A stretch of 64,000 nt of DNA, from NCBI RefSeq assembly GCF_003269275.1, contig NZ_QLTS01000005.1, positions 62,001 through 126,000 of the forward strand. The letters run 5' to 3'. Both the position numbers and the translations under genes were made by a program. The stretch comes from Phascolarctobacterium faecium DSM 14760. Lineage in GTDB: Bacteria; Bacillota; Negativicutes; Acidaminococcales; Acidaminococcaceae. Below are positions 6,787-35,077 of the stretch, piece by piece. Each line of letters begins with the position of its first letter. Within the stretch, counting starts at the first letter, position 1. The notes beneath the pieces were generated by a model that worked only from the letters and a program-made list of their open reading frames with translations, searched no databases and was not told where the DNA came from.

Positions 6787-6795
6787 TCTTTAACC

Positions 6796-16233: not shown

Positions 16234-16260
16234 ACTTTACCTCCTGCAGTTAAACAGAAA

Positions 16261-16287
16261 CAAGGCCCTTTTGTAAAAAGGGCCTTG
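16261..16287 (-). terminator. Strong hairpin between OmpH-like genes
   Basis: A perfect 12-bp inverted repeat (CAAGGCCCTTTT with its complement) surrounds a 3-nt loop, followed on the minus strand by TTTCTGTTT. It may be a partial terminator that lowers expression of copies B and A relative to copy C. Confidence 0.65.
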
Positions 16288-16294
16288 TCCGACA

Positions 16295-16780
16295 TTATTT
16301 ACCGCTTTGCAAAGCCTTGGATACCTCATCAGTAATATCGAGACCGCCGTATACAACGGTATTTTTGTCAACAACTACGGACAAACCTTTTTTATCAGCA
16401 ACTTTTTTGATTGTTGTTTCAATCTTTTTCAAAACAGGATCCATTAATTCCTTTTCTTTATTGGATAACCGTTCCTGCAACTGCTGATAATAACGCTGTT
16501 TTTCAGTATCATTCATGGTTTTACTTTTTTCATCAAAATCCTTCTGGGCATTATCGATTTCCTGCTTCATACTTGTCTGTACATTCTGCAGATCAGGCAC
16601 TTGAGAAAGCAGCATCTGATAATTAACAACGCCAATAGCCGATTCACTGGAAGCAGCTGATGCCACGCTGTTAACACCACTTTGGGTAAGTGTTAAAGCA
16701 AAACAGCCTAAAACAAAGATAGCTGCTACGAACAAAGATATCATTTTCACATTTTTTGGATCACGTAATTTTTGCATCAT
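16295..16780 (-). CDS. OmpH/Skp family periplasmic chaperone (copy C)
   Basis: A 161-residue protein with an N-terminal hydrophobic signal or anchor (about 13-35), then IGVVNYQMLLSQVPD, the typical opening strand of OmpH/Skp. Coiled-coil arms follow (60-125), and LSVVVDKNTVVYGGLDITDEV closes the fold, as in Skp. It is the closest of the three copies to a classical Skp in length and pattern. It lies 74 nt after the 421-residue envelope gene and in the same direction as bamA, so it is likely made with the outer-membrane assembly machinery. Confidence 0.85.
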   Translation of the reverse strand: MMQKLRDPKNVKMISLFVAAIFVLGCFALTLTQSGVNSVASAASSESAIGVVNYQMLLSQVPDLQNVQTSMKQEIDNAQKDFDEKSKTMNDTEKQRYYQQLQERLSNKEKELMDPVLKKIETTIKKVADKKGLSVVVDKNTVVYGGLDITDEVSKALQSGK

Positions 16781-16854
16781 AATAAAAATCCCTGCTTTCA
16801 GTTGTAATTATACTAAATAATTATATCAGTCAAAATCTTTTCTTTCAACCTTTA

Positions 16855-18138: not shown

Positions 18139-20346
18139 TTAGAATTGACCGCCGAAGCTGAAATGGAAACGTCCGCCCTGATCACCATAACCATAATCAA
18201 GCTTTACCGGTCCAAGAGGTGAGTTGATCCTTAAACCAACACCATAACTATATTTCAGCTCGCCCAAATCAAATGCTGTTTCACGGTCTTTGTCCCAGGC
18301 ATAACCGCTGTCTACAAACAAAACACCCTGCACTTTTTTCACGATCGGCATTCTATATTCAACAGTGCCTTTCAGCATGCTGTTGCCTTTGAACTGGTCA
18401 TCTTTATAACCGCGCAACGTCTCGCTGCCGCCCATTGAAAATCTCTGGCTAAGCGGCATATTGCCGCTGGCATAACCAGCTCCAAGCTGTACGGCAATGA
18501 CATTTTCTGCGCCCTGACGATAGTAATAACGATAATCAACAGAGTATTTCGTAAAGTCAAAATCGCCGCCTAAACCAGCATATTCGATCGTATAGGCATT
18601 TCTTTTGCCTTCATGCGGATCATAAATATTATCGCGTGAATCATACACTCTGGCGACACCGATACTGCGGGTCAGGCCAAAATTCTTCTTACGTCTATAT
18701 TCACCGTCATATTTAGGACCATCATATCTAGAGTCATAATCGCTGTTATTTCCCCAAGAATCCTCATAATACTGCGTGCTGTAACCATCAACAGCACCTT
18801 TGTAAATGTCGTCACGATTCTTCAACGTCAGATAATTGCTGACATATTCATTATTAGTCTTACGGCTGAACGTCAATTCCTGCCCGCGACGTTTTTTGTC
18901 ATAACGGGCAATTTCGTCGGCGTTACGGTCATAGTCTGCATATTCGTTGGTAACGTCGTACAAAGTAATTGTTGCGCTTGTTTCTTTACTGTCGATCCAA
19001 GGTTTTGTATAAGAGAACTCATAGTTCTTATTATCCGCACCGCCGAATTCCCAGCGAATATTAACTTTATCACCGGTACCACGGAAATTTTTATCACCGA
19101 CTGATACCATACCGATAAATCCGTCCGCATCACTGTAGCCGGCACCGATACCAAAAGTACCGGTATTCATTTCTACAACGGAAATCTCAATCTCTACAGC
19201 ATTAGGCTGCTGACCGGGGTTCAATTTGATATTAACATCTTCAAAATAGCCTAGATTATAAATACGCTGCATACTGCGGCGGGCATCTTTGGCATTAAAA
19301 GGTTCGCCTTTTTTCAGTTTCATTTCACGGATAATAACATAATCTTTAGTTTTAGTATTGCCCTTAATTTTAAAGTCTTCAACAATACCTTCATTTACGA
19401 CCAACAGCAGGGTTCCGTCAGGCTGCATTCTGATATCCGCAACACGTGCTAAAATGTAACCCTCTTTATTGTATTCAGCTTCCAAACGCTGTACTTTTGC
19501 GTTTACTTCTCTGATATTGATCAGCTGATTTTTGGGAAGATCCAGTAAGCTTTCAATTTTTTCTGTAGAAATCTTTGTATTTCCTTCTACTGCCAGCTGC
19601 TGATAAATAGGATTTTCCATAACATGATAGGTAACCTGCACACCTTCCGGAACCTGCTTAAATTCAGGCTGCAGATCATAGAACCATCCCATATTATAAA
19701 TAGCGTATAAATCCTTACCTAAACCTTCAGACGTCAAAGTCATACCAGGTTTAGTTTTTAAAACATTAATAATCTCTTCAGTTGGAGTCACATTATTACC
19801 GCTGACCATAATTTTAGTCACCAGCTGACCAAAATACGGTGCCGCAGCCTTTTCTATTTCTGCGGGAGGACGCATTGGCGGCTCTTCTTCACGGACTGCT
19901 GTAGTATTTGTCTGCGGGGCATTGGCAACAGCTTCCTGAGCAGACTTCGCCGCATCTTCTCTGGCAGCCTCTTTTTCAGCTTCCTGTCTGCTTACAGGAC
20001 GTTTGGCCTCTTCCTGCTGTTCAGCATCACCAGCTTCAGCCGGCTGTTCTTCAGTAGTGCCTTTATAGCGAGGATCGGAAATATCTTCAGATGGCTTATT
20101 ATGCATATAATAAACTGTCTTTTTCCCCTTTTTACTCAGTCCGCCTTTATCTTTTCCTTTGCCTTTTTGTGCTTTCTGTGCTTTTTCAAGAGCAGCTTTG
20201 GTAACAATCTGCTCTTTCCCACCGATAGTCATGGTTTGGTTTTCAACGACATCGGCCGCACTGTTTTCCTGCGCCCAAACAGGAGTCGTCAGCAAAAGCG
20301 CTGCCAGGCTCAAAGATAAGGACCGCAACATATTTTTTCTTCTCAT
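18139..20346 (-). CDS. bamA: Outer membrane assembly factor BamA (Omp85)
   Basis: A 735-residue Omp85 protein that inserts beta-barrel proteins into the outer membrane. A signal peptide (1-25) is followed by an unusual highly charged, low-complexity region (about 45-165: K/G-rich then E/A-rich). Three POTRA domains follow (about 173-246, 247-320, 321-393), fewer than the five of proteobacterial BamA. The barrel runs from about 396 to the terminal phenylalanine, with the lid-loop motif LRGY (in GSETLRGYKDDQ). The ATG has a GGAGG site. It sits between a single-span membrane protein and the unknown barrel protein. Omp85 members also include TamA, but the genomic setting suits the sole BamA. Confidence 0.92.
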   Translation of the reverse strand: MRRKNMLRSLSLSLAALLLTTPVWAQENSAADVVENQTMTIGGKEQIVTKAALEKAQKAQKGKGKDKGGLSKKGKKTVYYMHNKPSEDISDPRYKGTTEEQPAEAGDAEQQEEAKRPVSRQEAEKEAAREDAAKSAQEAVANAPQTNTTAVREEEPPMRPPAEIEKAAAPYFGQLVTKIMVSGNNVTPTEEIINVLKTKPGMTLTSEGLGKDLYAIYNMGWFYDLQPEFKQVPEGVQVTYHVMENPIYQQLAVEGNTKISTEKIESLLDLPKNQLINIREVNAKVQRLEAEYNKEGYILARVADIRMQPDGTLLLVVNEGIVEDFKIKGNTKTKDYVIIREMKLKKGEPFNAKDARRSMQRIYNLGYFEDVNIKLNPGQQPNAVEIEISVVEMNTGTFGIGAGYSDADGFIGMVSVGDKNFRGTGDKVNIRWEFGGADNKNYEFSYTKPWIDSKETSATITLYDVTNEYADYDRNADEIARYDKKRRGQELTFSRKTNNEYVSNYLTLKNRDDIYKGAVDGYSTQYYEDSWGNNSDYDSRYDGPKYDGEYRRKKNFGLTRSIGVARVYDSRDNIYDPHEGKRNAYTIEYAGLGGDFDFTKYSVDYRYYYRQGAENVIAVQLGAGYASGNMPLSQRFSMGGSETLRGYKDDQFKGNSMLKGTVEYRMPIVKKVQGVLFVDSGYAWDKDRETAFDLGELKYSYGVGLRINSPLGPVKLDYGYGDQGGRFHFSFGGQF

Positions 20347-20364
20347 CCAAAAATCCTCCCTAAA

Positions 20365-21697: not shown

Positions 21698-24600
21698 TTA
21701 AAAGGTTAGCCGATATTCCAGGCCATACCAATTCTCATTATTTTCATTTAAAGAATAATTTATATTCAAATGTTTACTGATCTCATACTGACCGAATACA
21801 CTATGGTGCTCATTATCCATACTGGTAGTATAACCAACCATAAAGTTATCCGTCAAATATTTACTGAATAAAACATTATATTGGTTACGTTCATCAGGTG
21901 TGAACTCACGGTTACGACGTGTATCCATTTCGATACCAGACCGCAGTTTTCCTGAATAAACCCTGAATTCATCAAGCCCCAGAGCCTCTTTAAAAATTTG
22001 TTCAACGTCACCAAATACCGCCATTTCCAAACCGGCAGTCATTAAATTCTGTAAATCATCGCTGTCGACACCTTCACTGCTGGTAGCTTCACGCTGCAGA
22101 GTCAGCATCCGCACGATCTGATCTTTGGTCAGCGGCGGCGAGGAATTGAGCTGTAGGTCCATTTCTTCAAGCGGTCCAGAAATGCGCATTCCAATATCAT
22201 AACGCTGGAACTTTGCTGTAGCCTCAAGATTCACCGTAGGCAGAACGCTTCCAGGTATAGGCCAGGCAGCAGAAGCAGAGCGAACTTTAAATTGTGTGCG
22301 CAAATAACTGATCGAACCTCGATCAGCACTGATCGTACCACTTATATTAGTATACAATGTACTGCCCTGGATATTCAATCCTCCGGCAAGCCATAAGTCA
22401 TATAAATATTTATTATACAAATGGATTTTCGGTCCAAGCGTTATCTGTACATCAAGACCAATATTACTTTCGCCTTCGCCAAACTCCGGTATTGTCGGCA
22501 TATTGACGAGCACGTCATCAAAGCGCACTTCACCTTTAAGCAGCGGCCGATAACTAAAGCGAGGACCTTTTCCAGGAGGAGGTGCGCTTCCTGCTTCTGG
22601 TCTCACAATGAACCTCTGCGGCGTTACTGTCAGATTGCCATTGATACGTCCTGTAAAAATATCAGAAGCTATTTCTGCGTTATCAGCAACCAGGTCAAGC
22701 TGATAAGCCTCACGTTCATTGGAGCGCAGCGCATAAGTACCGCTGCCTTTAAATGAACCCTTGCCAAGCTTGGCTGAAATATCTTTAAGCGCAACTTTAT
22801 TGCCTTCAAACTCTATATCTGTATGAATATTTTCAATAACAGTCTGTACATGTTTAAATTTCAAAGACCCATCAGGAATTTTTACAGCACCGTAAACCAA
22901 AGGTTCCTCAAGCGTACCTGCCAGTTTAACCTGCCCCTGCGTTTCACCTACGCCCCATTCCACCATTGGCGAAATGACCTGCAAAATACCCAGTCGTGCA
23001 TTGTCCAGATTAAGCTGTACATTCATCTGCGCGTTAGGATCGCGCCGCTGTTCTTTTGATCTGAATAAATCCAGCGGTACATCACCATAGGCACTGGCCT
23101 TATAAATATCTTTATTTAACATCGCCTGCTCTATTTTCAGATTATCATTCGCAAGCGAAAGCATCGCTGTAAAGTCATCGAAGCCAATGCCGGCCACACT
23201 GCCGTTTTTCACTTCCACAGAACCGTTTCCTTCAGGATCCTTTAAGGTTCCATGCAGCTGTACGAACATATTTAGATCACCGGTAACTTCAACAGGATCT
23301 GACATAAACGCTGTTACCAACGCAGGATTAGCATCTACAGCACCGGCCTCAAGTTCCAGCTTCCCATTAGCCAGATCAACCTTACCGCCGACAGCAACGA
23401 TTCCCTTATCTGTAACGTCCTTTGTTTCCATCAGTTTGACATCATCAAAATACCAGACTTTATCCTGCAAATGACCTTTAAACTTCATTTCTTCATATTT
23501 AAGATCATTAATAGAAATATCATCCACCCAGACATCAACAAAAATACCTGATCCCGGACCATGCGGATTAATTGCAATTTCGCCCTGAGCCAAACCATCT
23601 ACATTATAATCAGCTTTAGCCATTTTAAGTATAGACCTGACATTACCATATATAGCCACTATATTGCCCTGCAGCAATTTTTGCTCATGGTTATAATCAA
23701 GTTCTGCAGAAAGCACACCTTTAGGAGCCTGCTTAAATGATCCCAGCAAATGATTCTTTATTCCGCCGTCACTATCCAATTTGCATTGGATATCCGTCAA
23801 TTCTTCGCCGTTAATCATAATAGATTTACTGCTGACGTCACCATGGAAAAATGGTTTCGACAAAGTGCCAGTCAAGGTACCATGTGCATTTGCATATCCG
23901 TCTAAATCAACAGTATCGTCATTAATCGGTAAAGCACTGAGATCAATGTCTCTTATATCAACTTTAAAATCAAGATTTTTTTCTGCATCCATTCGGCCAT
24001 TAAGCTTGGCCTCTGTTGATAATGCAACAATATCACAGTCACTGATTACTAAATTATTGGCCTGATAACTGTAGTCGGTTTCAATCTTATCTATAAGATA
24101 ACCTTCAGCACTGCCGTCGGTCAGCAAAAACTTACCGCTGATATCCGGCATCGTTAAAGTCCCTTTTACAAACATTATATTATTAACGTTACCAGTAAGC
24201 TTCACTTCCGGTGCTACAACCTTGATGAAAGGTTCGGCTCTTACTCCTGCTGTCTCAACATCCAAATCAAAAACAGGCTCTTCACCCTGGAGATTGATGC
24301 TGCCGTTTAAAACACTTTCACCTTGGGCCATTGTCACCTTGTAATTTTTCAGGACAACAATGTTATCCTGCATACTCAGTCCACCATGAGCTTCTTCAAT
24401 TTCCAGTCCAGCTATATTGACCTGCTTCAGTTGAGTAACACCTGTAAAATCAACCGCATCCTCAGTTCCTGAAACATCAAATTGCACTGCTGCCAGACCG
24501 CTGCCCTGCTGGCCCATAAAATCAAGAACAGGTGCAATTGGGAAATCTGTTACGGATCCCTGCAGTTTAAATTCACCTGCACTGGAAACTGTTCCTTGAG

Positions 24601-25960
24601 CTAACAATGCTCCTGTTTCTGTAAACGCCGAAAAATTATTAATTTTAAGGCCATTTTGGTCAGCATCAATGTCAAAATCAACTTTTTGCAGCGGCAAATC
24701 ACGCCAACCTAAACGCACCGTATCTGCGGCCAGGTTGACTTCAAACTTATCATCTTTGATTATGCCTTTCATCGCCATGCTGCCATCTACAGTAAAAACA
24801 TCGTATGGTCTGTCATGCAACGGCGCAGTTTTGACATTCTCTACGTCAAGTGCTGCCACTACACTTCCGCTTCCAAGATCATATTCTGCCAGAAAATCAA
24901 CTCTGCCTCCGCCAAATTCAGCACGTGCAGTATTTATCTGTGCCTTGTTATCAATTATTCTAAAAGGTACAGAAAGTTTTCGAACTTCTTCATTTTTTAT
25001 TTTCAGTAAGTCGGAAGTCAGTAACCCGCGCCCCTGAATGTTATCCTTGTCCTTAAAATCAAGATCCCCATTAAGCTGTGCCGTCTGTCCATCTACAGTC
25101 AGTAAAAGTTTGTCTGATTTAACGGCTTTGTCATTAAAAGCAACCTTTCCGTCAATACCTACAGGAAATTCCTCATCTCCGTAAACAGCAACGCCTGTCA
25201 GTTTTTCCAAAACAACGGTGCCCGACATAGCGATATCTTCACCACTATTAGTCCACAAAAGATTAACATCCGCAACAGCACCCTGGAAATTTTTAACTTT
25301 TCCAAACTCTTCTGCTAAAGGGGCAAAAGCAGTTAAAGCAAAATGGTCGCTCTTTACTGTTAAACTGCCTACAGCCTTCATGTCAATCAGGCCCTTGAGT
25401 TCCAAAGCGTCTTCATCATGTAACAGTTTCGCATCAATAGCAAATTTCGGATTACCCCCACCGTCAACAGAACCATTCAAACCAAAATCCCATTCCCCAT
25501 ATGGAGTTTTGGTTACAATATGTCCATTTGCAATATCTAAGATTCCATAGAACGGTGTCTCATCAGAATCTGACGGTTTCAAAAAATCCTGCACGTTCCA
25601 TTGCTCTGTTTTATTCAGTGTTAAATAAATAGTCGGCTTTTCCAAAGAAACTCTGTCTAAAGCTTTATTTGTATTAAAAAGAGCATGCCAAGGCGAGATA
25701 TGCAGCTTAACATTTGGCAAATCAGCAATCAACTGCTGCTTCTTGTCCTTCACCTGCACATCAAATACGGACAATTCTAAGGCACCATTCCATTCTACAC
25801 GGGCAATATCAATAGAACCAGTAATATAATCCTTAGCTAAATTCGACACCAAAGGCGGAATCTGAGCCAAATATCCCGGCACAATAAATTTTATGATACT
25901 GTAATATACTATGCCGACTATTGCCGCAATTCCCAGCAACCAACGAAATAGTTTATTCAT
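21698..25960 (-). CDS. tamB: TamB/AsmA-like intermembrane lipid-transfer protein
   Basis: A 1420-residue protein anchored by one N-terminal transmembrane helix (about 5-27), with a very long series of amphipathic beta-strands that would form a hydrophobic groove across the periplasm. The C-terminal TamB domain (DUF490) is seen in the last 350 residues, including LNSSPPLTKDQIVRMLTL and the terminal NWYGLEYRLTF. In other diderms TamB and its AsmA-like relatives move phospholipids or help barrel insertion. No TamA gene is present here, so BamA (3 kb downstream) is the likely outer-membrane partner. The ATG has a GGAGG site. Confidence 0.9.
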   Translation of the reverse strand: MNKLFRWLLGIAAIVGIVYYSIIKFIVPGYLAQIPPLVSNLAKDYITGSIDIARVEWNGALELSVFDVQVKDKKQQLIADLPNVKLHISPWHALFNTNKALDRVSLEKPTIYLTLNKTEQWNVQDFLKPSDSDETPFYGILDIANGHIVTKTPYGEWDFGLNGSVDGGGNPKFAIDAKLLHDEDALELKGLIDMKAVGSLTVKSDHFALTAFAPLAEEFGKVKNFQGAVADVNLLWTNSGEDIAMSGTVVLEKLTGVAVYGDEEFPVGIDGKVAFNDKAVKSDKLLLTVDGQTAQLNGDLDFKDKDNIQGRGLLTSDLLKIKNEEVRKLSVPFRIIDNKAQINTARAEFGGGRVDFLAEYDLGSGSVVAALDVENVKTAPLHDRPYDVFTVDGSMAMKGIIKDDKFEVNLAADTVRLGWRDLPLQKVDFDIDADQNGLKINNFSAFTETGALLAQGTVSSAGEFKLQGSVTDFPIAPVLDFMGQQGSGLAAVQFDVSGTEDAVDFTGVTQLKQVNIAGLEIEEAHGGLSMQDNIVVLKNYKVTMAQGESVLNGSINLQGEEPVFDLDVETAGVRAEPFIKVVAPEVKLTGNVNNIMFVKGTLTMPDISGKFLLTDGSAEGYLIDKIETDYSYQANNLVISDCDIVALSTEAKLNGRMDAEKNLDFKVDIRDIDLSALPINDDTVDLDGYANAHGTLTGTLSKPFFHGDVSSKSIMINGEELTDIQCKLDSDGGIKNHLLGSFKQAPKGVLSAELDYNHEQKLLQGNIVAIYGNVRSILKMAKADYNVDGLAQGEIAINPHGPGSGIFVDVWVDDISINDLKYEEMKFKGHLQDKVWYFDDVKLMETKDVTDKGIVAVGGKVDLANGKLELEAGAVDANPALVTAFMSDPVEVTGDLNMFVQLHGTLKDPEGNGSVEVKNGSVAGIGFDDFTAMLSLANDNLKIEQAMLNKDIYKASAYGDVPLDLFRSKEQRRDPNAQMNVQLNLDNARLGILQVISPMVEWGVGETQGQVKLAGTLEEPLVYGAVKIPDGSLKFKHVQTVIENIHTDIEFEGNKVALKDISAKLGKGSFKGSGTYALRSNEREAYQLDLVADNAEIASDIFTGRINGNLTVTPQRFIVRPEAGSAPPPGKGPRFSYRPLLKGEVRFDDVLVNMPTIPEFGEGESNIGLDVQITLGPKIHLYNKYLYDLWLAGGLNIQGSTLYTNISGTISADRGSISYLRTQFKVRSASAAWPIPGSVLPTVNLEATAKFQRYDIGMRISGPLEEMDLQLNSSPPLTKDQIVRMLTLQREATSSEGVDSDDLQNLMTAGLEMAVFGDVEQIFKEALGLDEFRVYSGKLRSGIEMDTRRNREFTPDERNQYNVLFSKYLTDNFMVGYTTSMDNEHHSVFGQYEISKHLNINYSLNENNENWYGLEYRLTF

Positions 25961-26075: not shown

Positions 26076-27452
26076 TTATTCTGCTGCAGTTTCTGTAGAC
26101 ATAGTCGGCAGATTTGTTGTATTCGCAGCCGCAGTAACAGCTACAGGTACACCCATCGAAGTTTCCAATGCAATTTTCGAAGTATTGTAATCATACAAAG
26201 CATTGACAAAATTCGTTTTTGCCTCGGTCAGTGCAACCTGCGCGTCAATAACGTCCAGGTTAGTACCTACACCGGCCATATAACGAACCTGCGCAATATG
26301 GAAATCTTCTTCAGCCTTAGCGACCGCTACCTGTGTAGTAGAGATACGTTTCTCAGCTTCACGCAGTCCCAGATAATTGCTGCGCACTTCCAGTTCCACA
26401 GAATTTACTGTATCACGATAAGTTTCTTCTGCCTGCAGCAGTTTTTCTTCCGCCGCATGTACTTTAGACAAGGTAACGCCAGAGTCAAAAATATTCATTG
26501 TCGCCCCAATGCCTACGGACCAGTTCTCTTTGTCATCACCAGGCCAGTTACTACCACTACCGCCCCAAGATTCAGTTGCAGATGCAGTAACTTTCGGCAA
26601 AAAGCCGCTTTTAGCCACTTTGACAGCACCTTTAGCCGCGTCTACAGCTAAACGGCTTTGCTCCAGCTCCGCACGGTTCATTGAAGCGTAATCAAGGCAA
26701 TACTGCATATCATTCTCGTATGGAGTATACTGCAGACTGTCTTTAAGTTTTAAGGTCGTATCTAAGGAAGTTCCAATAATCTTGTTCAACGAGGCTTCAG
26801 CTACATCGTAATTGTTGGTAGCCTGGATCAGCTGCTGCTGTGCATTAGCCAAAGAAACCTCACTGCGCAGTACATCTACCTTGGCTACAACGCCTACATC
26901 ATATTGCGCCTGTACATTTTTCAGATGCTCTTCCAGCTGATTAACAGAATCCTGATAGAGGTTTTCCATATTGCCAGCCTGCAGCAGGCTGAAATAGCCG
27001 TCTGTAGCCGTCTTTTTCATTTCGATGTAAGCCTTGGTTTCACCCAAAGCATAGCTTTTGTAATTAGCCTTAGCCTGATCTATCGTTCCTGATAATTGTC
27101 CACCAGTATAAATGGGAATCGAAGCGGTAATAGAATTACTGTGAGAATTACCAAGATTTTTGCTATAACTGCTAGTAGCTGTATTCCACTGTGGATCTGC
27201 ATATCCACCACGTCCAGATCTATGTTCCGCATCAATACTGATACCACGTCCGGCACGTGCTGCATTAAGTTCCGCTCTGGAACCTTTCTTTTCAGATACA
27301 GCGATCTTAATCGCCGGATTTGTTGTCAAAGCTCTTTGTACAGCATCGTCTAAATCAAGCTCCAAGGTTTCGGCAAAAACCGACTGACTGCATAATAAAC
27401 TTACTGCAGCCGTAAGCACCAGCACCTTTCGGCTCTTTTTATAATTGAACAT
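26076..27452 (-). CDS. tolC: TolC-family outer membrane efflux protein
   Basis: A 458-residue protein with a signal peptide cut after VFA (residue 28) and two repeated OEP halves of long coiled-coil helices alternating with short barrel strands (SNSITASIPIYTGGQLSG in the first half, NWSVGIGATMNIFDSG in the second). The end is a low-complexity A/T-rich tail. TolC trimers form the outer-membrane duct of tripartite exporters; no adaptor (HlyD/AcrA type) or pump gene is adjacent. It has its own promoter and a candidate operator and ends in a strong terminator, so it is probably a single-gene unit. Confidence 0.9.
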   Translation of the reverse strand: MFNYKKSRKVLVLTAAVSLLCSQSVFAETLELDLDDAVQRALTTNPAIKIAVSEKKGSRAELNAARAGRGISIDAEHRSGRGGYADPQWNTATSSYSKNLGNSHSNSITASIPIYTGGQLSGTIDQAKANYKSYALGETKAYIEMKKTATDGYFSLLQAGNMENLYQDSVNQLEEHLKNVQAQYDVGVVAKVDVLRSEVSLANAQQQLIQATNNYDVAEASLNKIIGTSLDTTLKLKDSLQYTPYENDMQYCLDYASMNRAELEQSRLAVDAAKGAVKVAKSGFLPKVTASATESWGGSGSNWPGDDKENWSVGIGATMNIFDSGVTLSKVHAAEEKLLQAEETYRDTVNSVELEVRSNYLGLREAEKRISTTQVAVAKAEEDFHIAQVRYMAGVGTNLDVIDAQVALTEAKTNFVNALYDYNTSKIALETSMGVPVAVTAAANTTNLPTMSTETAAE

Positions 27453-27535: not shown

Positions 27536-28804
27536 TTAAAAATAACTGCGCAATCCGACATAAGTATTGTTTTTGTTGCCATTACGCACATCAGTCTGCT
27601 CACCCAGCAATGAAAGATTATCTGTCAGCTTCAACTCCCCGCCGACTTTTACTTTCGTATCGTTAAAGTCATAGACCTGACTGTACAGTTTAAAAGAATT
27701 TCCCAGTCTATAATCAAAGCCAACGCCAAATTCTCCCTGCATCGCTCCCATACTTACAGCAGCAGACCCAAAATTCTTTCCTAAGGAAAGATCGAGTTTG
27801 TTGGCATCACCAATATCATAACCGCCGATATAAACGAATGTATCCTCTTTAGGAGTAAAGGTAACTCCCAAATTGCTGCGCCAGTCACTGCCCTTGACAC
27901 TGCGTGTTACATCAGCCTGCACCTTTGCCGTATCCAAAACTCCCAGCATTCTGTTAGCCTTATCACTTGCTTCTCTGGCGTTATGCAGAGTAGCTTTGAT
28001 ATCAGCTTCAGTCTGCGGATCTGTTGCGACCTTTTCCAATAATTCCGTGGCTTTTTCGATTCTGCCGCTGGCATTAGCAAGATTTTCAATGATTCTTGCC
28101 ATATTCTGTCCAGCGCCACCCTTATTTGTCTCAACCATGATGTTTTCCATCTGGCTGGCAGCGTTATTCATTCTTACGGCCATTTCACTCATCTGCTGTA
28201 CCATCAAATTTATTTCCTGCTGATTAGCTACAGCAACATCTGCCATGACCTTAGTAAAAGTGTTCATATTATTACTGATATCACGGGCATTTACAAACCC
28301 GTCACGCATCGACCGCTGTACTTCAGGATCGCCAAAAACGTTATTCAGCGCTTCTGCAATCCCCTCAACTTTTGCCAGAACTTTAGATGAAGCATTCATA
28401 AACTCATCCAGCCCTGTTCCCTGCTCACCTTCCAGCTTATCGCCGGGATGAATATATTGTCCTGTCATTTTTACAGGAGGCAGCACATCTACAAAACGCT
28501 CCCCTAAAATACCATCAGACCCCAAAGAAAAAACCGCTCCCTTAGGAATCTTGATATCTTTATTGATATCAGCCACTACATCAACACTGTCACCATTTAC
28601 ATTAACTTCTTTAACAGTGCCAACCTGTACGCCGGCATACCTTACTACATGTCCCGGCATCAGCCCCCCAACCTGCGGATAAGAAATCTGCAGTTTATAA
28701 CCGCTGCCAGAGAAACTGAAAGCGCCTAAAAAAGTAATGATTCCTGCTAAAAGTCCGATACCGCCTAAAGTTAAAGCGCCAACTTTTACTTCGTTTGAAC
28801 TCAT
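27536..28804 (-). CDS. mlaD: MlaD-type MCE protein with C-terminal outer-membrane barrel
   Basis: A 422-residue protein with three parts: a transmembrane anchor (7-30), one MCE domain (about 36-110; GVQVGTVKEV, GSDGILGERFVDV) and a long helical region (130-300) ending in a strand-rich domain (about 308-422; VGFDYRLGNSFKLYSQVYDF, VGLRSYF). The terminal aromatic residue and alternating pattern fit a small beta-barrel. Proteobacterial MlaD stops after the MCE hexamer and needs MlaC and MlaA to reach the outer membrane. A fused helix-plus-barrel form spanning the envelope has been described for the Negativicute Veillonella parvula, and this gene fits that description. Confidence 0.88.
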   Translation of the reverse strand: MSSNEVKVGALTLGGIGLLAGIITFLGAFSFSGSGYKLQISYPQVGGLMPGHVVRYAGVQVGTVKEVNVNGDSVDVVADINKDIKIPKGAVFSLGSDGILGERFVDVLPPVKMTGQYIHPGDKLEGEQGTGLDEFMNASSKVLAKVEGIAEALNNVFGDPEVQRSMRDGFVNARDISNNMNTFTKVMADVAVANQQEINLMVQQMSEMAVRMNNAASQMENIMVETNKGGAGQNMARIIENLANASGRIEKATELLEKVATDPQTEADIKATLHNAREASDKANRMLGVLDTAKVQADVTRSVKGSDWRSNLGVTFTPKEDTFVYIGGYDIGDANKLDLSLGKNFGSAAVSMGAMQGEFGVGFDYRLGNSFKLYSQVYDFNDTKVKVGGELKLTDNLSLLGEQTDVRNGNKNNTYVGLRSYF

Positions 28805-29562
28805 TACTGTACCGCCTCCTCTCTGATTTCTTTACCGCGAATAAACGCGTCTACAATTTGATTATGACCATTTCTTATTTCTTCGACAGTGCCCAAAGCG
28901 ACAATTTTTCCCTTATAAAGCATAGCAATCCTGTCCGCCGCATAAAAAGCTGATTCCATATCGTGAGTTACTAAAACCGATGTCACCTGCAATTGCTGCT
29001 GCGTTTTCCTGATTAAACGGCTGATATTATTTGACATGATCGGGTCCAGCCCCGCCGTGGGTTCATCATATAAAACTATTTCCGGTCTATTAGCTATAGC
29101 TCTGGCTAAACCGACTCTTTTCTTCATGCCACCTGATAACTCAGCCGGATATTGTTCTTTTGATTGAGGCAAGCCAACAAGTTCTAACATCTCATCAACA
29201 ATGCCTTGAATTTCTGATTCACTTTTATCAGTATGCTGGCGCAGTCCAAAAGCAACATTTTCACCAACTGTCAAAAAATCGAATAAAGCAGAATACTGAA
29301 ATACCATTCCCATCTTTTGACGCAGTTTGTTCCAGCCATCTTCATCCAGAGAACTTACCTGCTCCCCCTGAACAAAAATTTCTCCGGCAGTAGGTTGCAG
29401 CAAACCTATCATTGCGCGTAAAATAGTACTTTTACCACTGCCCGACGGACCTAAAACGGCAAGAGTCTCCCCTTGTCTGATATCCAGATCAATATTATTT
29501 ATAACCACATTTTCACCAAAAGTAATATTTAATTTTTTAAAACTGATAATCGGTTCTGCCAC
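28804..29562 (-). CDS. mlaF: MlaF phospholipid-transport ATPase
   Basis: A 252-residue ABC ATPase of the Mla/Ttg2 type. Walker A GPSGSGKST is at 38-46, the signature is the family-typical LSGGMKKRVGLARA, and Walker B is IVLYDEPTAGLDP. It powers lipid movement by the MlaE permease at the inner membrane. The start is a GTG with a perfect AAGGAGGT site. The stop overlaps the mlaD ATG by one base, and mlaE is 14 nt upstream, giving a compact mlaE-mlaF-mlaD operon without mlaB or mlaC. Confidence 0.93.
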   Translation of the reverse strand: MAEPIISFKKLNITFGENVVINNIDLDIRQGETLAVLGPSGSGKSTILRAMIGLLQPTAGEIFVQGEQVSSLDEDGWNKLRQKMGMVFQYSALFDFLTVGENVAFGLRQHTDKSESEIQGIVDEMLELVGLPQSKEQYPAELSGGMKKRVGLARAIANRPEIVLYDEPTAGLDPIMSNNISRLIRKTQQQLQVTSVLVTHDMESAFYAADRIAMLYKGKIVALGTVEEIRNGHNQIVDAFIRGKEIREEAVQ

Positions 29563-29576
29563 AGGCAGTACCTCCT

Positions 29577-30347
29577 TTAAACATACAATAAAATTGACAA
29601 AAAGTAGTTAGTTATAAATATAAGGACTATAGATAAAACAACTGAACCAGTCGTAGCAATACCAACACCTTCAGCACCCTGTTTGGCACCCAGCCCTTTA
29701 TAACAGGCTACAATAGCAATAATACCGCCAAAAACAGCACTTTTAAGCATACCGCCGACCATATCAAATGGCTCAGCAAACATTTTTATAGAATTTATAT
29801 AAGTAAAAGTACTAATTCCGGCATAATAATGAGAAACCAGCCAACCGCCAATATTACCAATTGTATTAGCAAAAACAATCAGCACCGGCATCATTAAAAC
29901 AATTGCCAAAAATCTTGGCACAACCAGATAAGTTGTAGGATTTGTAGCCATTACTTTCAATGCATCGATTTGCTCTGTTACTTTCATCGTGCCGATTTCC
30001 GCAGCAATGGCTGCACCAATACGACCAGCAACGACAACACCTGTCAAGACCGGTACCAGTTCGCGCCCCATCGCAATGGCTACAATACCGCCAACTGAGG
30101 AAGAAGCACCAAAACGTACAAATTCCTTCGCTGTCTGTACAGAAAAAACCATACCTGTAAAAAGTATCGTCATCATAACTATCGGCAGTGAATCAGCTCC
30201 CAGCTTCGCCATTTGTCTGACGGTTTCCTTCCCGTCAGCCTTGCTGATACGCTTAAGAGTATCCGTAAAGAGCAGCATCATCCGACCGGCATTAGCACAG
30301 CCTTCAAGCATAATCTTGCCTATGTCGTTACATATAGTCTGCAGCAT
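29577..30347 (-). CDS. mlaE: MlaE-family ABC permease
   Basis: A 256-residue integral membrane protein of the MlaE/PF02405 family, with about five to six transmembrane helices. Family hallmarks include MGRELVPVLTGVVVAGRIGAAIAAEIGTMKVTEQIDAL (about 90-128) and NPTTYLVVPRFLA. It forms the inner-membrane channel of the MlaFED lipid transporter. The ATG has an AAAGGAG site. It is first in the operon, and the 123 nt upstream contain a possible promoter. Confidence 0.93.
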   Translation of the reverse strand: MLQTICNDIGKIMLEGCANAGRMMLLFTDTLKRISKADGKETVRQMAKLGADSLPIVMMTILFTGMVFSVQTAKEFVRFGASSSVGGIVAIAMGRELVPVLTGVVVAGRIGAAIAAEIGTMKVTEQIDALKVMATNPTTYLVVPRFLAIVLMMPVLIVFANTIGNIGGWLVSHYYAGISTFTYINSIKMFAEPFDMVGGMLKSAVFGGIIAIVACYKGLGAKQGAEGVGIATTGSVVLSIVLIFITNYFLSILLYV

Positions 30348-30470: not shown

Positions 30471-32138
30471 TTATTTTACTACATCAATAACAATATCTGT
30501 TGTACCGTCAACAATAAAATTCATTGTAGTTTTTTGTTTCATCGGACTGCCCTCAAGCATAGACGCAAATCCGCCACCCGACTGCATTGCTGCGTTAGGT
30601 GCGCCCTGGCCGGCGGCAATATCCACAATAAGATCATTATTCTGATCAGCTTCGTTGATGCTTTTTATAAAATCATTTAAAGTTTTACGATTATCCTTCT
30701 GCTGTGCCGGCACACCCTCTTCACGCTGTTTCCTCAGCAGATTCTGAATCCATGCCAGTGAGCTGCCGCCGCGGACAGTCAGAGGCAATTTACCTTCCCG
30801 CTGCTCTTTCGGTATCTTAAACAGTACGGTCTTCGTAACTTTTGGCGCCCTGTAAGGCTGCAGCTGCACATCAATATGGACAGTATCCCCAGGTGCAGCC
30901 TCTTTTTCCCTTACTGCAGCACTGATAATCTCGGCTACTTCTGCTTTATCATCAAGAACAATATTGATATTGACTCCGTAAATATCAACTTTTTCAAATT
31001 TATTTTGTGTTAAAATCGTTCCTGCTTCCACCAATTCCTGATTGATCAGTTTGCCGATTCCTGCCGCTGCATAATACATATTTTCCCGCTGAACATTGAT
31101 CGGCCCGCTGATATCACCTCTGCCATCAATACGGAAAGAAAATCTTGCTGTGCCGCCGCCTTCACGATCTATAGTTTTAGCAACAGTATTATAAGCTACT
31201 GCATCCAGCATTGCCGGCAGCAAAACTTCATCATCTATAACTTCCACACGTGAGCTATTATTGATGCCTCTGGCTCCATCAGTAACAGAAACATACACTG
31301 GTACAACAGGCGGACCCTGACCGATCTTACCTGCAATTCCAGCACTGCGGTCCTGAGTGATAGTACCAATAGTTTCACCTATATTACCAACTTTATAAGC
31401 TGATTCCAAATTGGGCAGAGAAGCTAAAATCCAGGCCTTATTCATAAAATAACAGGAATCACCGCGCTGCATAAAAGGATGGCCAAATGCCAAAATTTCA
31501 CCGTCATCGCCAACCCAGGTAACTGTTCCCAACGCCCCTAACTGGATATCACCACGCATTAAAGAAACACCTACGGCACTTCCTGGCTGTAAAGGCTGCG
31601 TGCTCGAAAAAGAGCCGCTGCCGCCGACACCTGTTGCTTTCAGTCCAAACGGTTCCAGCTTTTCACTCAAATAACGTACACCTGACTCTGTAAAACCGCC
31701 TGCCATCAAAGGTGTATTTTTCGGTAAAAATTCTGACGGACGCGGTGCCGGTTCATTTAAAAGATCCAGCATCCTGCCTATAGGCGTTAAAAAGCAATAC
31801 TTGGGATCGGTAAAAGCTTTGCCGAATGCCACCGCGCCGGCAAGTCTGCCATTAATATAGACTGGACTCCCGCTCATGCCCTGAGCAATACCACCACTGC
31901 GATCAATAACATCACCACTAGCTTTAATCAAAATATTATGCCCCATAGCATCGTTACCAATGACACCTAAAACTTCTATATTAAATTCTTCGATAGTGTC
32001 TCCTTCTATGACGGTCTTCGCAATACCGCGCATACCCGGAACAATATCCTCTACCGGCATCAGCGGCACATTTGCACAAACCAGCGCACTGCTGAGACAC
32101 CAGATTATTAAGCTTAAAATAAATATCTGTTTTTTCAT
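30471..32138 (-). CDS. Exported SpoIVB-type (S55) serine peptidase domain protein
   Basis: A 555-residue protein beginning with a signal peptide (start ATG at 32138, GGAGAG site). The longer upstream frame would read through a terminator hairpin and is rejected. Early residues VEDIVPGMRGIAKTVIEG and EEFNIEVLGVI match the segment preceding the S55 domain. The active-site region shows a histidine in MGHNILIKA, an aspartate in DVIDRSGGIAQ and the GMSGSPV nucleophile motif (S89). The C-terminal half is strand-rich and unassigned. SpoIVB cleaves a sporulation regulator in Bacillus, but here the protein sits among envelope genes, so a periplasmic processing role is more likely (inference). Confidence 0.8.
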   Translation of the reverse strand: MKKQIFILSLIIWCLSSALVCANVPLMPVEDIVPGMRGIAKTVIEGDTIEEFNIEVLGVIGNDAMGHNILIKASGDVIDRSGGIAQGMSGSPVYINGRLAGAVAFGKAFTDPKYCFLTPIGRMLDLLNEPAPRPSEFLPKNTPLMAGGFTESGVRYLSEKLEPFGLKATGVGGSGSFSSTQPLQPGSAVGVSLMRGDIQLGALGTVTWVGDDGEILAFGHPFMQRGDSCYFMNKAWILASLPNLESAYKVGNIGETIGTITQDRSAGIAGKIGQGPPVVPVYVSVTDGARGINNSSRVEVIDDEVLLPAMLDAVAYNTVAKTIDREGGGTARFSFRIDGRGDISGPINVQRENMYYAAAGIGKLINQELVEAGTILTQNKFEKVDIYGVNINIVLDDKAEVAEIISAAVREKEAAPGDTVHIDVQLQPYRAPKVTKTVLFKIPKEQREGKLPLTVRGGSSLAWIQNLLRKQREEGVPAQQKDNRKTLNDFIKSINEADQNNDLIVDIAAGQGAPNAAMQSGGGFASMLEGSPMKQKTTMNFIVDGTTDIVIDVVK

Positions 32139-32153
32139 AACTCTCCATAATAG

Positions 32154-32189
32154 TGCAAAACCGGCGTGAGCAGAGCAGCACGCCGGTTT
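32154..32189 (-). terminator. Terminator between the lipoyl-like gene and the S55 peptidase gene
   Basis: An 11-bp stem (AAACCGGCGTG pairing with CACGCCGGTTT) with a 10-nt loop lies 12 nt after the lipoyl-like stop and is followed by TTTTGC on the minus strand. Confidence 0.65.
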
Positions 32190-32200
32190 CAATTTTGTTC

Positions 32201-32512
32201 TTAATTAGCCGCTATACGCACCACAGTTTGTCCGTTGCTGATATTATCGCCCGGTTTAACCAAAACAGCAGTTACTTTTCCGGCAATATTAGCTCTGGCT
32301 GCAGGCGCAGGACCGGCAATAGTTTTGACTTTAACCAATACCTGACCTTCACTGACCTGCATTCCTACAGCAGCCAGCCCATCTGCCAAAACAACGCCAT
32401 TCAAAGTAGTTTTCTGATCTACAGAAGTATCTGCGAATGCCAAAGTATAAGCTCCGCCTAAAATGCAAAGTACCGTCAACACTGCAATAACTTTCCAGTT
32501 AATTTTTTTCAT
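32201..32512 (-). CDS. Small exported biotin/lipoyl-like domain protein
   Basis: A 103-residue protein. The ATG at 32512 has an AAGGAG site. A signal peptide or anchor (about 5-28, ending LAFA) precedes a compact domain of two half-repeats with the biotinyl/lipoyl hammerhead look: EGQVLVKVKT near the middle and ANIAGKVTAVLVKPGDNISNGQTVVRI at the end. The position where biotin or lipoyl carriers have a modified lysine in a tight turn reads AGPAPAARA here and has no lysine, so covalent cofactor attachment is unlikely. Similar domains occur inside HlyD/AcrA adaptors. A free-standing exported copy has no obvious assigned role. Confidence 0.7.
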   Translation of the reverse strand: MKKINWKVIAVLTVLCILGGAYTLAFADTSVDQKTTLNGVVLADGLAAVGMQVSEGQVLVKVKTIAGPAPAARANIAGKVTAVLVKPGDNISNGQTVVRIAAN

Positions 32513-32599
32513 TTTTCTCACTCCTTCCAAGAGGAAGCATCGGGATTTCTGCATATCTCCCTATATTGTATTATACTATTCTAATTTAGCTTTGACAAG

Positions 32600-34000
32600 T
32601 CAGTTCTTCTTAGAGAATAAGCCTAAGCCTACACTGACAGCCCGTTCGTTTCCGTCAGAAGGATTATTTAAAATCTTATTATTGAGTACCATTTCACTGG
32701 ACCCGCCGCCATCAAAATTAAGTGCTGATACCGCCCCTAGTTTAATCATATAACGAGCAACTTCATCTAACGTCATCCCCACAGAATTAGTACGGCGTCC
32801 GTCTGCTACCAATATCACCACAGTACCGTCTTTTTTTACCCCAATAGCGGTTCTTGGAGCTCTGCCATAGGCAATATCTCCGGCAATCTGCTCACTGACA
32901 GAACGCACATTTCGTTTGCCGTCTTCTACCAGCATCGGACCTGCACCCAAAACCACTTCAGCTTTATCAGCAACAGTATCCCCTAATGTTTGCTGAACAC
33001 TGGCTCTATCGCCAATCTGCAGCTGTTCCAGTATTTTGGCATTAGTTCCATGCGCGGAAACTATCACACTGTTTTTGTCTATGCGCAGGTTCCCTGCTTT
33101 ACTGATTTCAGCGACCTTACCATCTTTAATACGTACCTCACAGCCAAAACTATTTGTTCGTGTCGACGGGCCAAAATAATGTGTATAAATGACGACATCC
33201 TCCGCAATACGTTCCCTGTTGATCCCTTTAACATGCAGTTTTACGCCCAATGCCGGCAGCATAACACTACCGTTATAAGCCAGATCTTTCATAATTTGCG
33301 GTTTGCCGTCAGCAATAACAAACGCACTGCGGGCCTTATCCTCCATACCAAGCCACTCGCCGTCGATTTTTAGATTACCAATAATCCAGCCGCTGGTATC
33401 GAAATATGAAGCATTGACAGCTGCTTTCGCCCCTAAAGTATTAACGGCTTTCAGCAGCCTTCCACGTCCGTTCCTGTCTATAGCTCCCGAAAACGGCAGT
33501 ATTTTATAATCACTATTCGGTGCTACTTCCAAAATATGCATCTGAATCGGCAGACCTTCCATATCATCCTGCCAGAAGGTATATTGCAATCCTTTGCCCT
33601 GGTTCACTGTGTTTTTAGTCACCAGGATACGGTAAATATCTAAAACAATACGGTTTGGCTGCTGCAATGCAAATACTTTATACTGCTGCTCTTTATTAAG
33701 AGACACAACCAATTTAGACGCCTTACGTCCGTCTTTTTTCAAAACCACGCTTTTAATGATTGGGTCTTTGACCTTTTCACTCATTTCTTTAGCAACAGCT
33801 GCATCAATATTCACTACTATTGATGAACCCTGTTTCTCATCCTTGTACTTAACTTTTTCATCAGTATCAAGTACAATCCTTACCCGTGTAGGGCTGCTGC
33901 TGTAACGCATTTTATTTACTGTCGCCGCCCAGGCCTGAACAGGAAGCAAAATCAAAAGTGCCGTTAATATTATTTTTAAAAAATATTTTGTCTGCAACAT
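32600..34000 (-). CDS. Exported AMIN-domain and phosphodiester glycosidase (NAGPA-like) protein
   Basis: A 466-residue protein with a signal peptide (about 1-25). The start ATG at 34000 follows AGGAGG by 9 nt; the longer frame overlaps the mbl terminator. Residues 26-130 resemble an AMIN domain (VRIVLDTDEKVKY, NRIVLDIYR), which targets proteins to peptidoglycan or the envelope. The remainder is a phosphodiester glycosidase (NAGPA/DUF2233) domain with AAVNASYF, RTAIGVKKDG, LVADGRR and the conserved NFDGGGSS. Members remove sugars or cap groups through phosphodiester bonds. A cell-wall or envelope-glycan role is inferred from the AMIN domain and the adjacent mbl and murA. Confidence 0.82.
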   Translation of the reverse strand: MLQTKYFLKIILTALLILLPVQAWAATVNKMRYSSSPTRVRIVLDTDEKVKYKDEKQGSSIVVNIDAAVAKEMSEKVKDPIIKSVVLKKDGRKASKLVVSLNKEQQYKVFALQQPNRIVLDIYRILVTKNTVNQGKGLQYTFWQDDMEGLPIQMHILEVAPNSDYKILPFSGAIDRNGRGRLLKAVNTLGAKAAVNASYFDTSGWIIGNLKIDGEWLGMEDKARSAFVIADGKPQIMKDLAYNGSVMLPALGVKLHVKGINRERIAEDVVIYTHYFGPSTRTNSFGCEVRIKDGKVAEISKAGNLRIDKNSVIVSAHGTNAKILEQLQIGDRASVQQTLGDTVADKAEVVLGAGPMLVEDGKRNVRSVSEQIAGDIAYGRAPRTAIGVKKDGTVVILVADGRRTNSVGMTLDEVARYMIKLGAVSALNFDGGGSSEMVLNNKILNNPSDGNERAVSVGLGLFSKKN

Positions 34001-34012
34001 TTTATCGAACCT

Positions 34013-34049
34013 CCTAAAAAATAATACACAGCCGCAAGGACTGTGTATT
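34013..34049 (-). terminator. Terminator after mbl/mreB
   Basis: A 9-bp stem (AATACACAG pairing with CTGTGTATT) is followed on the minus strand by ATTTTTT. It starts 6 nt after the mbl stop and partly covers the ribosome site of the next gene. Confidence 0.75.
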
Positions 34050-34054
34050 AGCAC

Positions 34055-35077
34055 TTACAAACTACCGTTACCAACAATAGAACCGGGACGCAGTTTATTC
34101 AAATCGATTAAAGCCTTACCTGTCCCCAAAGCGACGCAGTCAAGCGGTTGTTCAGCGACATAAGTATCAATACCGGTTTCGTCCTTCAATACTTGGGAAA
34201 TACCATCCAACAGCGCACCGCCGCCAGTCAGATAAATCCCCTTGTCAACTATATCCGCTGATAATTCAGGCGGACATTTTTCCAAAACTGATCTTACTGA
34301 TGCAACCAGTGATGCAACAGACTCTCTCAAAGCCTTACGACCATCCTCAGACGTAACTTTGATAGTAGTCGGCAGTCCAGTCACCAGATCACGTCCGCGA
34401 ACCTCCTGCTCTACCTGCCTTCCTTCAGGATGCACCGTCGCCACATTAATTTTTATCTCCTCTGCTGTACGCTCACCAATCAAAACATTATGAATGCGTT
34501 TGACATGCCTGATAATAGCTTCGTCAAAAGCATCGCCGCCAATCCGCAAGGAGGCGTCAACAACAACCCCACCCAAGCTTAATACGGCAATATCAGTAGT
34601 TCCGCCGCCGATATCGACAACCATACTGCCAGCTGCAGCTGCAATATCCAAACCTGCTCCAAGAGCTGCTGCTAGAGGCTCTTCTATCAAATATGTTTTC
34701 GAAGCCCCAGCCTGCATCGTAGCTTCTAAAACAGCACGTTTCTCAACTGAAGTTACCCCGGTAGGGATACATACCATAATACGCGGTTTACTGAAAAAAC
34801 TTTTACCTGCAACTTTATTAACTACGTATTCCAGCATTTTTTGGGTAATTGTATAGTTGGCAATAACGCCTTCTTTCAAAGGACGAATGGCAACAATATT
34901 GCCGGGCGTACGTCCAATCATCTGGCGCGCCTCTTCACCTACGGCTAAAATCTTATTTTTGTCTTTATCAATTGCCACAACAGAAGGCTCATTCAAAACG
35001 ATCCCCTTACCTTTGATAAAAACCAAAATATTGGCAGTCCCCAAATCAATACCTATATCAACACTATTAAAAAACAT
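34055..35077 (-). CDS. mbl: Rod-shape-determining actin homolog, MreB/Mbl
   Basis: A 340-residue actin-like ATPase that directs side-wall peptidoglycan synthesis at the cytoplasmic face. Phosphate-1 DIGIDLGTAN (7-16), phosphate-2 VVDIGGGTTDIAV and the adenosine loop LTGGGALLDG are clear, and the length is typical. It is adjacent to murA, as mbl is close to murA in many Firmicutes, so Mbl is my preference over MreB; the two cannot be separated safely by eye. The ATG is 14 nt after murA, and a terminator follows. Confidence 0.88.
   Translation of the reverse strand: MFFNSVDIGIDLGTANILVFIKGKGIVLNEPSVVAIDKDKNKILAVGEEARQMIGRTPGNIVAIRPLKEGVIANYTITQKMLEYVVNKVAGKSFFSKPRIMVCIPTGVTSVEKRAVLEATMQAGASKTYLIEEPLAAALGAGLDIAAAAGSMVVDIGGGTTDIAVLSLGGVVVDASLRIGGDAFDEAIIRHVKRIHNVLIGERTAEEIKINVATVHPEGRQVEQEVRGRDLVTGLPTTIKVTSEDGRKALRESVASLVASVRSVLEKCPPELSADIVDKGIYLTGGGALLDGISQVLKDETGIDTYVAEQPLDCVALGTGKALIDLNKLRPGSIVGNGSL

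Follow-up and report, generated by a model that had tools for sequence, protein, structure and literature searches.

The stretch of DNA analyzed here (the window; 64,000 nucleotides of Phascolarctobacterium faecium DSM 14760, contig NZ_QLTS01000005.1, positions 62,001 to 126,000) carries, on the minus strand between a gene of the MreB/Mbl family and mlaEFD-tolC-tamB, three genes in a row for proteins predicted to be exported: an AMIN-NAGPA protein, a small biotin/lipoyl-like protein, and an S55-like protein that we term S55L and that is the main subject of this work. This arrangement, running from the mbl side to the mlaEFD side, had been recognized in a first-pass annotation and is confirmed by the open reading frames, the Pfam matches, and the flanking genes. 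The N-terminus of each of the three proteins is, as judged by eye, a signal-peptide-like stretch. For S55L, we chose the ATG at 32138 as start; the start listed at 32192 is an upstream TTG. The three genes and the parts of S55L are as follows.

32600..34000, minus strand: AMIN + NAGPA (phosphodiester glycosidase) protein, exported, 466 residues, ATG start
32201..32512, minus strand: small biotin/lipoyl-like protein, exported, 103 residues, inner ATG used
30471..32138, minus strand: S55L, S55-like, exported, 555 residues, predicted permuted barrel order, ATG start
31749..32072, minus strand: serine-bearing part of S55L, residues 23-130, similar to the second (C-terminal) barrel of SpoIVB (311-422) and of Deg proteases
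31221..31751, minus strand: linker and histidine-bearing part of S55L, residues 130-306, similar to the first barrel of SpoIVB
30768..31154, minus strand: C-terminal beta-rich, sandwich-like region of S55L, residues ~329-457, assigned from model secondary structure; structure rows with model residues 378-533 are weak

Order of the two barrels in S55L

S55L had been annotated as a SpoIVB-type peptidase. The S55 similarity and the Ser and His residues behind that label hold, but the label covers half of an S55 domain in its usual order, and the two halves appear to be permuted. The Pfam family Peptidase_S55 (PF05580) matches S55L with an expectation value (E) of 1e-11 (45.7 bits vs. a cut-off of 25) over profile positions 115-192 of 210 only, and the SpoIVB equivalog TIGR02860 gives 43 bits vs. 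the 305.25 required. No PDZ family was found in S55L in Pfam at E up to 1, and no Deg protease family matches S55L in Pfam or NCBIfam.

Profile comparison of 46 SpoIVB proteins from other genomes with S55L proteins of many phyla indicates that S55L has counterparts of both halves of SpoIVB. The first part of S55L matches the serine half of SpoIVB (E 2.4e-19, columns 188-256), and the second part of S55L matches the histidine half (score 38.4, E 6.9e-5, columns 74-174, with the ALGH motif at 88), with none of 500 column shuffles as good (maximum 28.5) and a score of 14.2 for the reversed profile. Comparisons of the second part with 11 and 16 SpoIVB proteins were weaker (E ~0.03; 0.0033 in a later run, reached by none of 200 shuffles), and the result was clear once 46 SpoIVB proteins were used. 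Joining the halves in permuted order brought no gain in score (117.0 whichever order was used; mean 118.2 and maximum 128.0 for shuffled-C controls), so that the permutation rests on the comparison of separate halves. One early S55L sequence set left out five Negativicutes sequences without the strict motif and loci with truncated frames, and alignment A2 omits L099, which has a long insert.

A structure model of mature S55L (64 sequences; model residue 1 is protein residue 23), with a predicted local distance difference test score (pLDDT) of 90.3 and a predicted template-modeling score (pTM) of 0.88, points to a serine-bearing barrel of trypsin-like (PA clan) type, with Z of 6.6-7.4 to the second barrels of SpoIVB and Deg proteases. 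Model residues 1-108 (protein residues 23-130) align with SpoIVB (9lnf) residues 311-422 at Z 6.6 (root-mean-square deviation 2.7, 106 residues aligned, 26% identity) and with the second barrel of DegQ (127-238) at Z 7.4, and the second barrels of DegP and DegS align too. When the second domain (protein residues 130-306) is modeled alone (pLDDT 92.3), SpoIVB is the third row in Foldseek (probability 0.97, E 0.19). We conclude that the predicted order along the S55L chain is serine barrel, linker, histidine barrel: that is, a circular permutation of the SpoIVB/Deg order. A whole S55 domain with the histidine half followed by the serine half is not what S55L contains; the serine half comes first and the histidine half second, and it is because of this permutation that database matches would cover half of the S55 domain.

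Predicted active site of S55L

Three residues of the predicted active site are conserved in every S55L sequence that covers them.

31872..31874, minus strand: codon of Ser89, predicted nucleophile, in GMSGSP; 151/151 distinct sequences
31479..31481, minus strand: codon of His220, predicted general base, in AFGHP; 149/149 sequences covering it
31350..31352, minus strand: codon of Asp263, candidate third catalytic residue, in QDR; 149/149 sequences covering it

The counts refer to S55L proteins found by profile in 160 of 164 loci, which yielded 151 distinct sequences; Asp197 is kept in 149 of the 151. The many-phyla loci were chosen by a DNA pattern over GMSGSPVY, and conservation of that motif there is partly by choice; the counts for His220, Asp197, and Asp263 are unaffected by this selection, and the loci from genome searches were not picked by motif. 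Sequences that had been dropped from earlier sets and that appear in a profile re-examination have the Ser, the His, and the Asp.

His220 and Asp263 are 43 residues apart, much as His57 and Asp102 of chymotrypsin are 45 apart. The Asp263 column is Asn in 46/46 SpoIVB proteins. The account of the SpoIVB crystal structure places Asp363 ~24 Å from His236 and proposes Thr393 as the third catalytic residue (PMC12502668). We did not adopt the equivalent of Thr393 as the third catalytic residue of S55L; by eye, the window protein has Ala at that position. We infer that S55L may keep an ordinary triad that SpoIVB lost, and that S55L is probably an active serine protease.

Gene neighborhoods and partners

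The two genes upstream of S55L encode proteins that fit the domains first proposed for them. The AMIN-NAGPA protein has both Pfam domains above cut-off (NAGPA: E 8.5e-38, 130.6 bits vs. 25; AMIN: E 6.9e-8, 32.9 bits vs. 20.5), and its closest solved structures are Slr0280 (5h3k) and NAGPA entries. Its DGGGSS motif is intact, and DGGGS is kept in 16/17 aligned rows, being absent in L326. At L326 (10531-11871; family f26), the NAGPA gene is retained in the syntenic place without DGGGSS and other conserved residues. The small protein has a marginal Biotin_lipoyl match (E 8.8e-5, 22.7 bits vs. a cut-off of 22.1), and no lysine is present in the protein or its homologues (45 sequences collected) at the usual biotin/lipoyl hairpin position, as placed by eye; a stand-alone lipoyl-like domain without the modified lysine is thus what the sequences contain. 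The family has a conserved A.RA....G.V stretch (by eye). Phmmer matches of the small protein to ubiquitin chains were sums of many weak repeats and were ignored.

Three features lie between or before the genes.

34022..34050, minus strand: terminator-like hairpin after mreB, 12 pairs, T-run
32570..32598, minus strand: promoter-like site TTGTCA-17-TATAAT before the small gene, 11/12 matches
32157..32190, minus strand: hairpin in the gap from the small gene to S55L, with a short T-run after it, -21.2 kcal/mol over the 62-nucleotide gap, absent from the terminator scan

Promoter-like sites of this kind occur near chance level in the region (20 found vs. 15.7 expected). Hairpins and promoter-like site suggest that the three genes may not be on one transcript in this genome. 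The gap between the small gene and S55L in relatives, measurable in 18 of 19 loci, ranges from -62 to 108 nucleotides and is at most 38 nucleotides in 16, and these short gaps therefore argue for co-transcription there.

The first-pass annotation had proposed co-occurrence of the three genes across Negativicutes as a check, a scattered distribution being taken to mark the neighborhood as accidental. An even sample of 120 genomes of the class contains S55L in 119, AMIN-NAGPA in 119 (with a few matches that are partial or paralogous), and the small protein in 98. Where S55L is present (119 genomes), a NAGPA/AMIN match lies upstream on the same strand within 4 kb of S55L in 104 and a small gene within 1.5 kb in 95; both are there in 85, NAGPA only in 19, the small gene only in 10, and neither in 5, two of which (G042, G063) are drafts with S55L and NAGPA on separate contigs. 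Across families, 20 loci were fetched: mlaE follows S55L in 18 (not L319, L327), and the genes before S55L include the small gene in 19 (not L319), NAGPA in 18 (not L312, L327), and mreB in 19 (not L315). Co-occurrence is observed, with synteny far beyond chance; trio and S55L-NAGPA pair are syntenic throughout the class, the pair recurs in other Bacillota, and an accidental, scattered neighborhood is rejected.

The trio is, however, not an obligate unit, and S55L is its constant member: some families have no NAGPA or one without the motif, and several lineages have a NAGPA-S55L gap too short for the small gene, which they lack. In six genomes of the host's own family this gap measures 86-170 nucleotides, which shows the small gene to be absent there. 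One small genome of the host's family (G053, 1.3 Mb) keeps S55L, with no small protein and no NAGPA beside S55L.

Among 101 genomes of Bacillota (the phylum of G122), S55L, called from a long match with E below 1e-90, is present in 22 and Omp85 in 24, including all 22, with 77 genomes having neither; the genomes with an Omp85 match and no S55L are G161 and G203. The association has a Fisher p of 3e-20 with kinship ignored, and in 19/22 genomes Omp85 lies on the same contig as S55L, 1.2-12.4 kb away. We fetched 20 of the 22 loci and set aside two (L291, L299), whose S55L is identical to that of Negativicutes loci L312 and L319. In the 18 remaining, non-Negativicutes loci, a TamB-like gene is the next recognized downstream gene in 16 (not L301, L309; scores are weak in three of them, L302, L305, and L306), the fetched stretch includes a BamA-like gene in 17 (not L301), and in 7 the neighbor recognized upstream of S55L is NAGPA. 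In a tree of S55L, rooted at the midpoint only and without six loci (L294, L305, L306, L309, L325, L329), a branch with support 99 sets off the Firmicutes (47 rows), and one with support 100 the Negativicutes (29 rows); this branching is more in line with inheritance inside the diderm Firmicutes than with repeated transfer. Full-length SpoIVB is found alongside S55L in 11/12 Negativicutes checked (mostly larger genomes) and 5/10 others; because S55L-bearing genomes often hold full-length SpoIVB, S55L is not a substitute for it. An outer-membrane role of S55L is supported by gene context together with the published fractionation of a Veillonella homologue, described below.

S55L also occurs in other phyla. 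The many-phyla scan listed 80 of at least 119 stretches, and its phylum counts are not frequencies; the 80 loci are mostly from Acidobacteriota, with others from Latescibacterota, Gemmatimonadota, Aminicenantes, WOR-3, Poribacteria, Armatimonadota, Verrucomicrobiota, Actinomycetota, and Bacillota. Among the adjacent same-strand upstream genes of the non-Negativicutes loci listed, 4/28 are NAGPA (L120, L138, L142, L162), all four loci being from Bacillota or placed with Bacillota in the tree; this sample thus shows the NAGPA link in Firmicutes only. Beside S55L, the small gene went unrecognized outside Negativicutes. Of the same-strand genes downstream of S55L in non-Negativicutes loci (L095-L174), 18/36 match beta-propeller families such as the two-component-regulator propeller (Reg_prop) family. 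These neighbor genes suggest that the setting of S55L in other phyla differs.

The genes around the trio in the window, assigned by Pfam except where stated, are as follows.

34055..35077, minus strand: MreB/Mbl-family gene, upstream
29577..30347, minus strand: mlaE, adjoining S55L downstream
28804..29562, minus strand: mlaF-like ABC ATPase gene
27536..28804, minus strand: mlaD
26076..27452, minus strand: gene for a tolC-like outer membrane efflux (TolC/OEP) protein
21698..25960, minus strand: tamB
18142..20364, minus strand: gene for a bamA-like Omp85 protein, stop-to-stop frame

Because it further holds bamA-like, OmpH/Skp-like, and lipid A genes, the window corresponds to the large outer-membrane cluster described for diderm Firmicutes (PMC5007114). 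Two OmpH/Skp-like proteins are encoded in tandem near the bamA-like gene (15328-16807, minus strand). An 843-residue frame at 4261-6789 (minus strand) matches a Kdo-transferase N-domain (residues 51-217) and LpxK (residues 488-837) and is likely a fused KdtA-LpxK protein.

Interpretation and relation to known systems

The explanation that we favor, and consider fairly probable, is that S55L is an active, periplasmic or outer-membrane-associated, circularly permuted trypsin-like serine protease that serves outer-membrane traffic. S55L would come from the same stock as SpoIVB, with the serine-bearing barrel first, the histidine/aspartate-bearing barrel second, and a beta-rich tail, and Ser89, His220, and Asp263 would form a triad once the barrels pack together. 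S55L would belong to the ancestral outer-membrane cluster of diderm Firmicutes (with tamB and bamA, and with mlaEFD in Negativicutes) and would most likely make a limited, regulatory or processing cut in some protein of the machinery for inter-membrane lipids or outer-membrane proteins, like the single signaling cleavage made by DegS or SpoIVB. AMIN-NAGPA would be a frequent neighbor, docked on peptidoglycan and expected to cleave sugar-1-phosphodiester bonds, and the small protein would be an unmodified barrel-sandwich domain and a dispensable accessory.

Several results weigh against this explanation. The profile match of the second part has a probability of just 63%, although it lies above all shuffles. 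No Foldseek match to the S55L models has E ≤0.001, and VIA, for which the best rows with the second domain alone are mostly trypsin-type proteases, gives Z of at most 5.9, where, by the tool's own note, Z <8 may reflect a common arrangement. The Omp85 association takes no account of shared ancestry, the S55L proteins of Firmicutes being one group in the tree. Among the loci listed beyond Bacillota, neither NAGPA nor the small gene was recognized beside S55L, and the neighbors differ: where the downstream neighbor is on the same strand, it is a beta-propeller gene in about half of the loci.

An alternative, close to the first-pass proposal of a module acting on a cell-wall or tethering substrate, is one dedicated pathway in which NAGPA trims a phosphodiester-linked glycan and S55L processes the small protein or NAGPA. 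The presence of both partners upstream of S55L in 85/119 genomes, the close spacing of small gene and S55L in 16 of 18 measurable loci, and the S55L-NAGPA adjacency in 7/18 other Bacillota loci are what such a pathway would lead one to expect; we nevertheless consider it unlikely, as whole lineages retain S55L without NAGPA or without the small gene, the small gene goes unrecognized beside S55L outside Negativicutes, S55L was found without either partner beyond Bacillota, and, in the window, the genes are set apart by hairpins and a promoter-like site. Improbable, too, is a barrel-swapped binding or scaffold protein, pseudoprotease-like, within the TamB/Mla/BAM machinery. S55L does have structural bridges (TamB, MlaD, TolC) as neighbors, and the L326 NAGPA, which kept its place and lost DGGGSS, indicates that non-catalytic partners can persist at the locus, but pseudoproteases usually vary at catalytic residues, and the Ser, His, and Asp of S55L are invariant in every covering sequence from many phyla. 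A plain SpoIVB descendant of normal order, retained when sporulation was lost and carrying an S55 domain that has half decayed, could by itself explain a Pfam match limited to the second half, but is rejected as very improbable: the missing half is located downstream with a conserved His, full-length SpoIVB coexists with S55L in the genomes counted above, and the family spans many phyla.

The permuted protease of our favored explanation could, in a speculative and rather doubtful extension, represent a natural family, common across diderm phyla, that is a core yet overlooked component of the ancestral outer-membrane cluster; its regulatory cut would link TamB/Mla lipid traffic with growth of the cell wall, AMIN-NAGPA would sense or edit the wall side, and SpoIVB of endospores, acting between two membranes, would be of shared ancestry. 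New in this analysis is that a "SpoIVB-type" protein is probably a barrel-swapped protease, probably active, that follows the outer membrane in Bacillota. We found no account of a permutation of S55, or of the S55L-NAGPA-small-gene trio, in the literature searched, and we know of no natural permuted PA-clan protease. One of the few genes of the cluster without a function, located near tamB, thereby gains a concrete prediction, namely that it encodes a barrel-swapped serine protease whose catalytic residues can be named, and the S55L family allows study of permutation of the trypsin-like fold.

We know of no tie between the Slr0280 or NAGPA structures and an S55-like gene. The window protein shares its NAGPA domain with Slr0280 of Synechocystis (PDB 5h3k) and with a bacterial DUF2233/NAGPA protein (3ohg); the alignment with Slr0280 starts inside AMIN, at query residue 95, and continues through NAGPA (E 6.3e-17), but the similarity is only moderate. 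S55L resembles SpoIVB (MEROPS S55, PDB 9lnf, PMC12502668) in the sequence of both protease halves, in GMSGSP and.GH, and in being exported, but differs in its reversed halves, in having no PDZ match, in its added C-terminal beta-rich tail, in Asp at a position that is Asn in SpoIVB, and in going with the outer membrane, not with sporulation. With DegS, DegP, and DegQ (HtrA) S55L shares a superposable serine-bearing barrel (Z up to 7.4) and an expected envelope location, but its barrels are in the opposite order, and it matches no PDZ domain and, in Pfam and NCBIfam, none of their families.

The closest parallels are in Veillonella. Poppleton et al. (2017) list Vpar_0521 (SpoIVB domain) and Vpar_0519 (DUF2233) in whole-cell, outer-membrane, and surface fractions (PMC5491611); annotation and locus-tag order with TolC (Vpar_0525) indicate that these are the homologues of S55L and NAGPA. 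Vpar_0521 is reported to be conserved among diderm Firmicutes and to have an outer-membrane role of unknown nature (PMC5491611, PMC5007114), and the passages concerned describe no permutation, triad, non-Firmicutes occurrence, or link between the two proteins. Antunes et al. (2016) mention three cluster genes of unclear annotation, one for a predicted membrane-associated protease (PMC5007114), and we infer from the passage that this gene (there COG750 [sic]) is the S55L gene. A 2023 paper on Mla studied mlaEFD and tamB of V. parvula, with SpoIVB, peptidase, protease, and NAGPA occurring 0 times in its main text, and the MlaEFD-TolC-TamB gene order that it reports is the same as that downstream of S55L in the window (PMC10665443).

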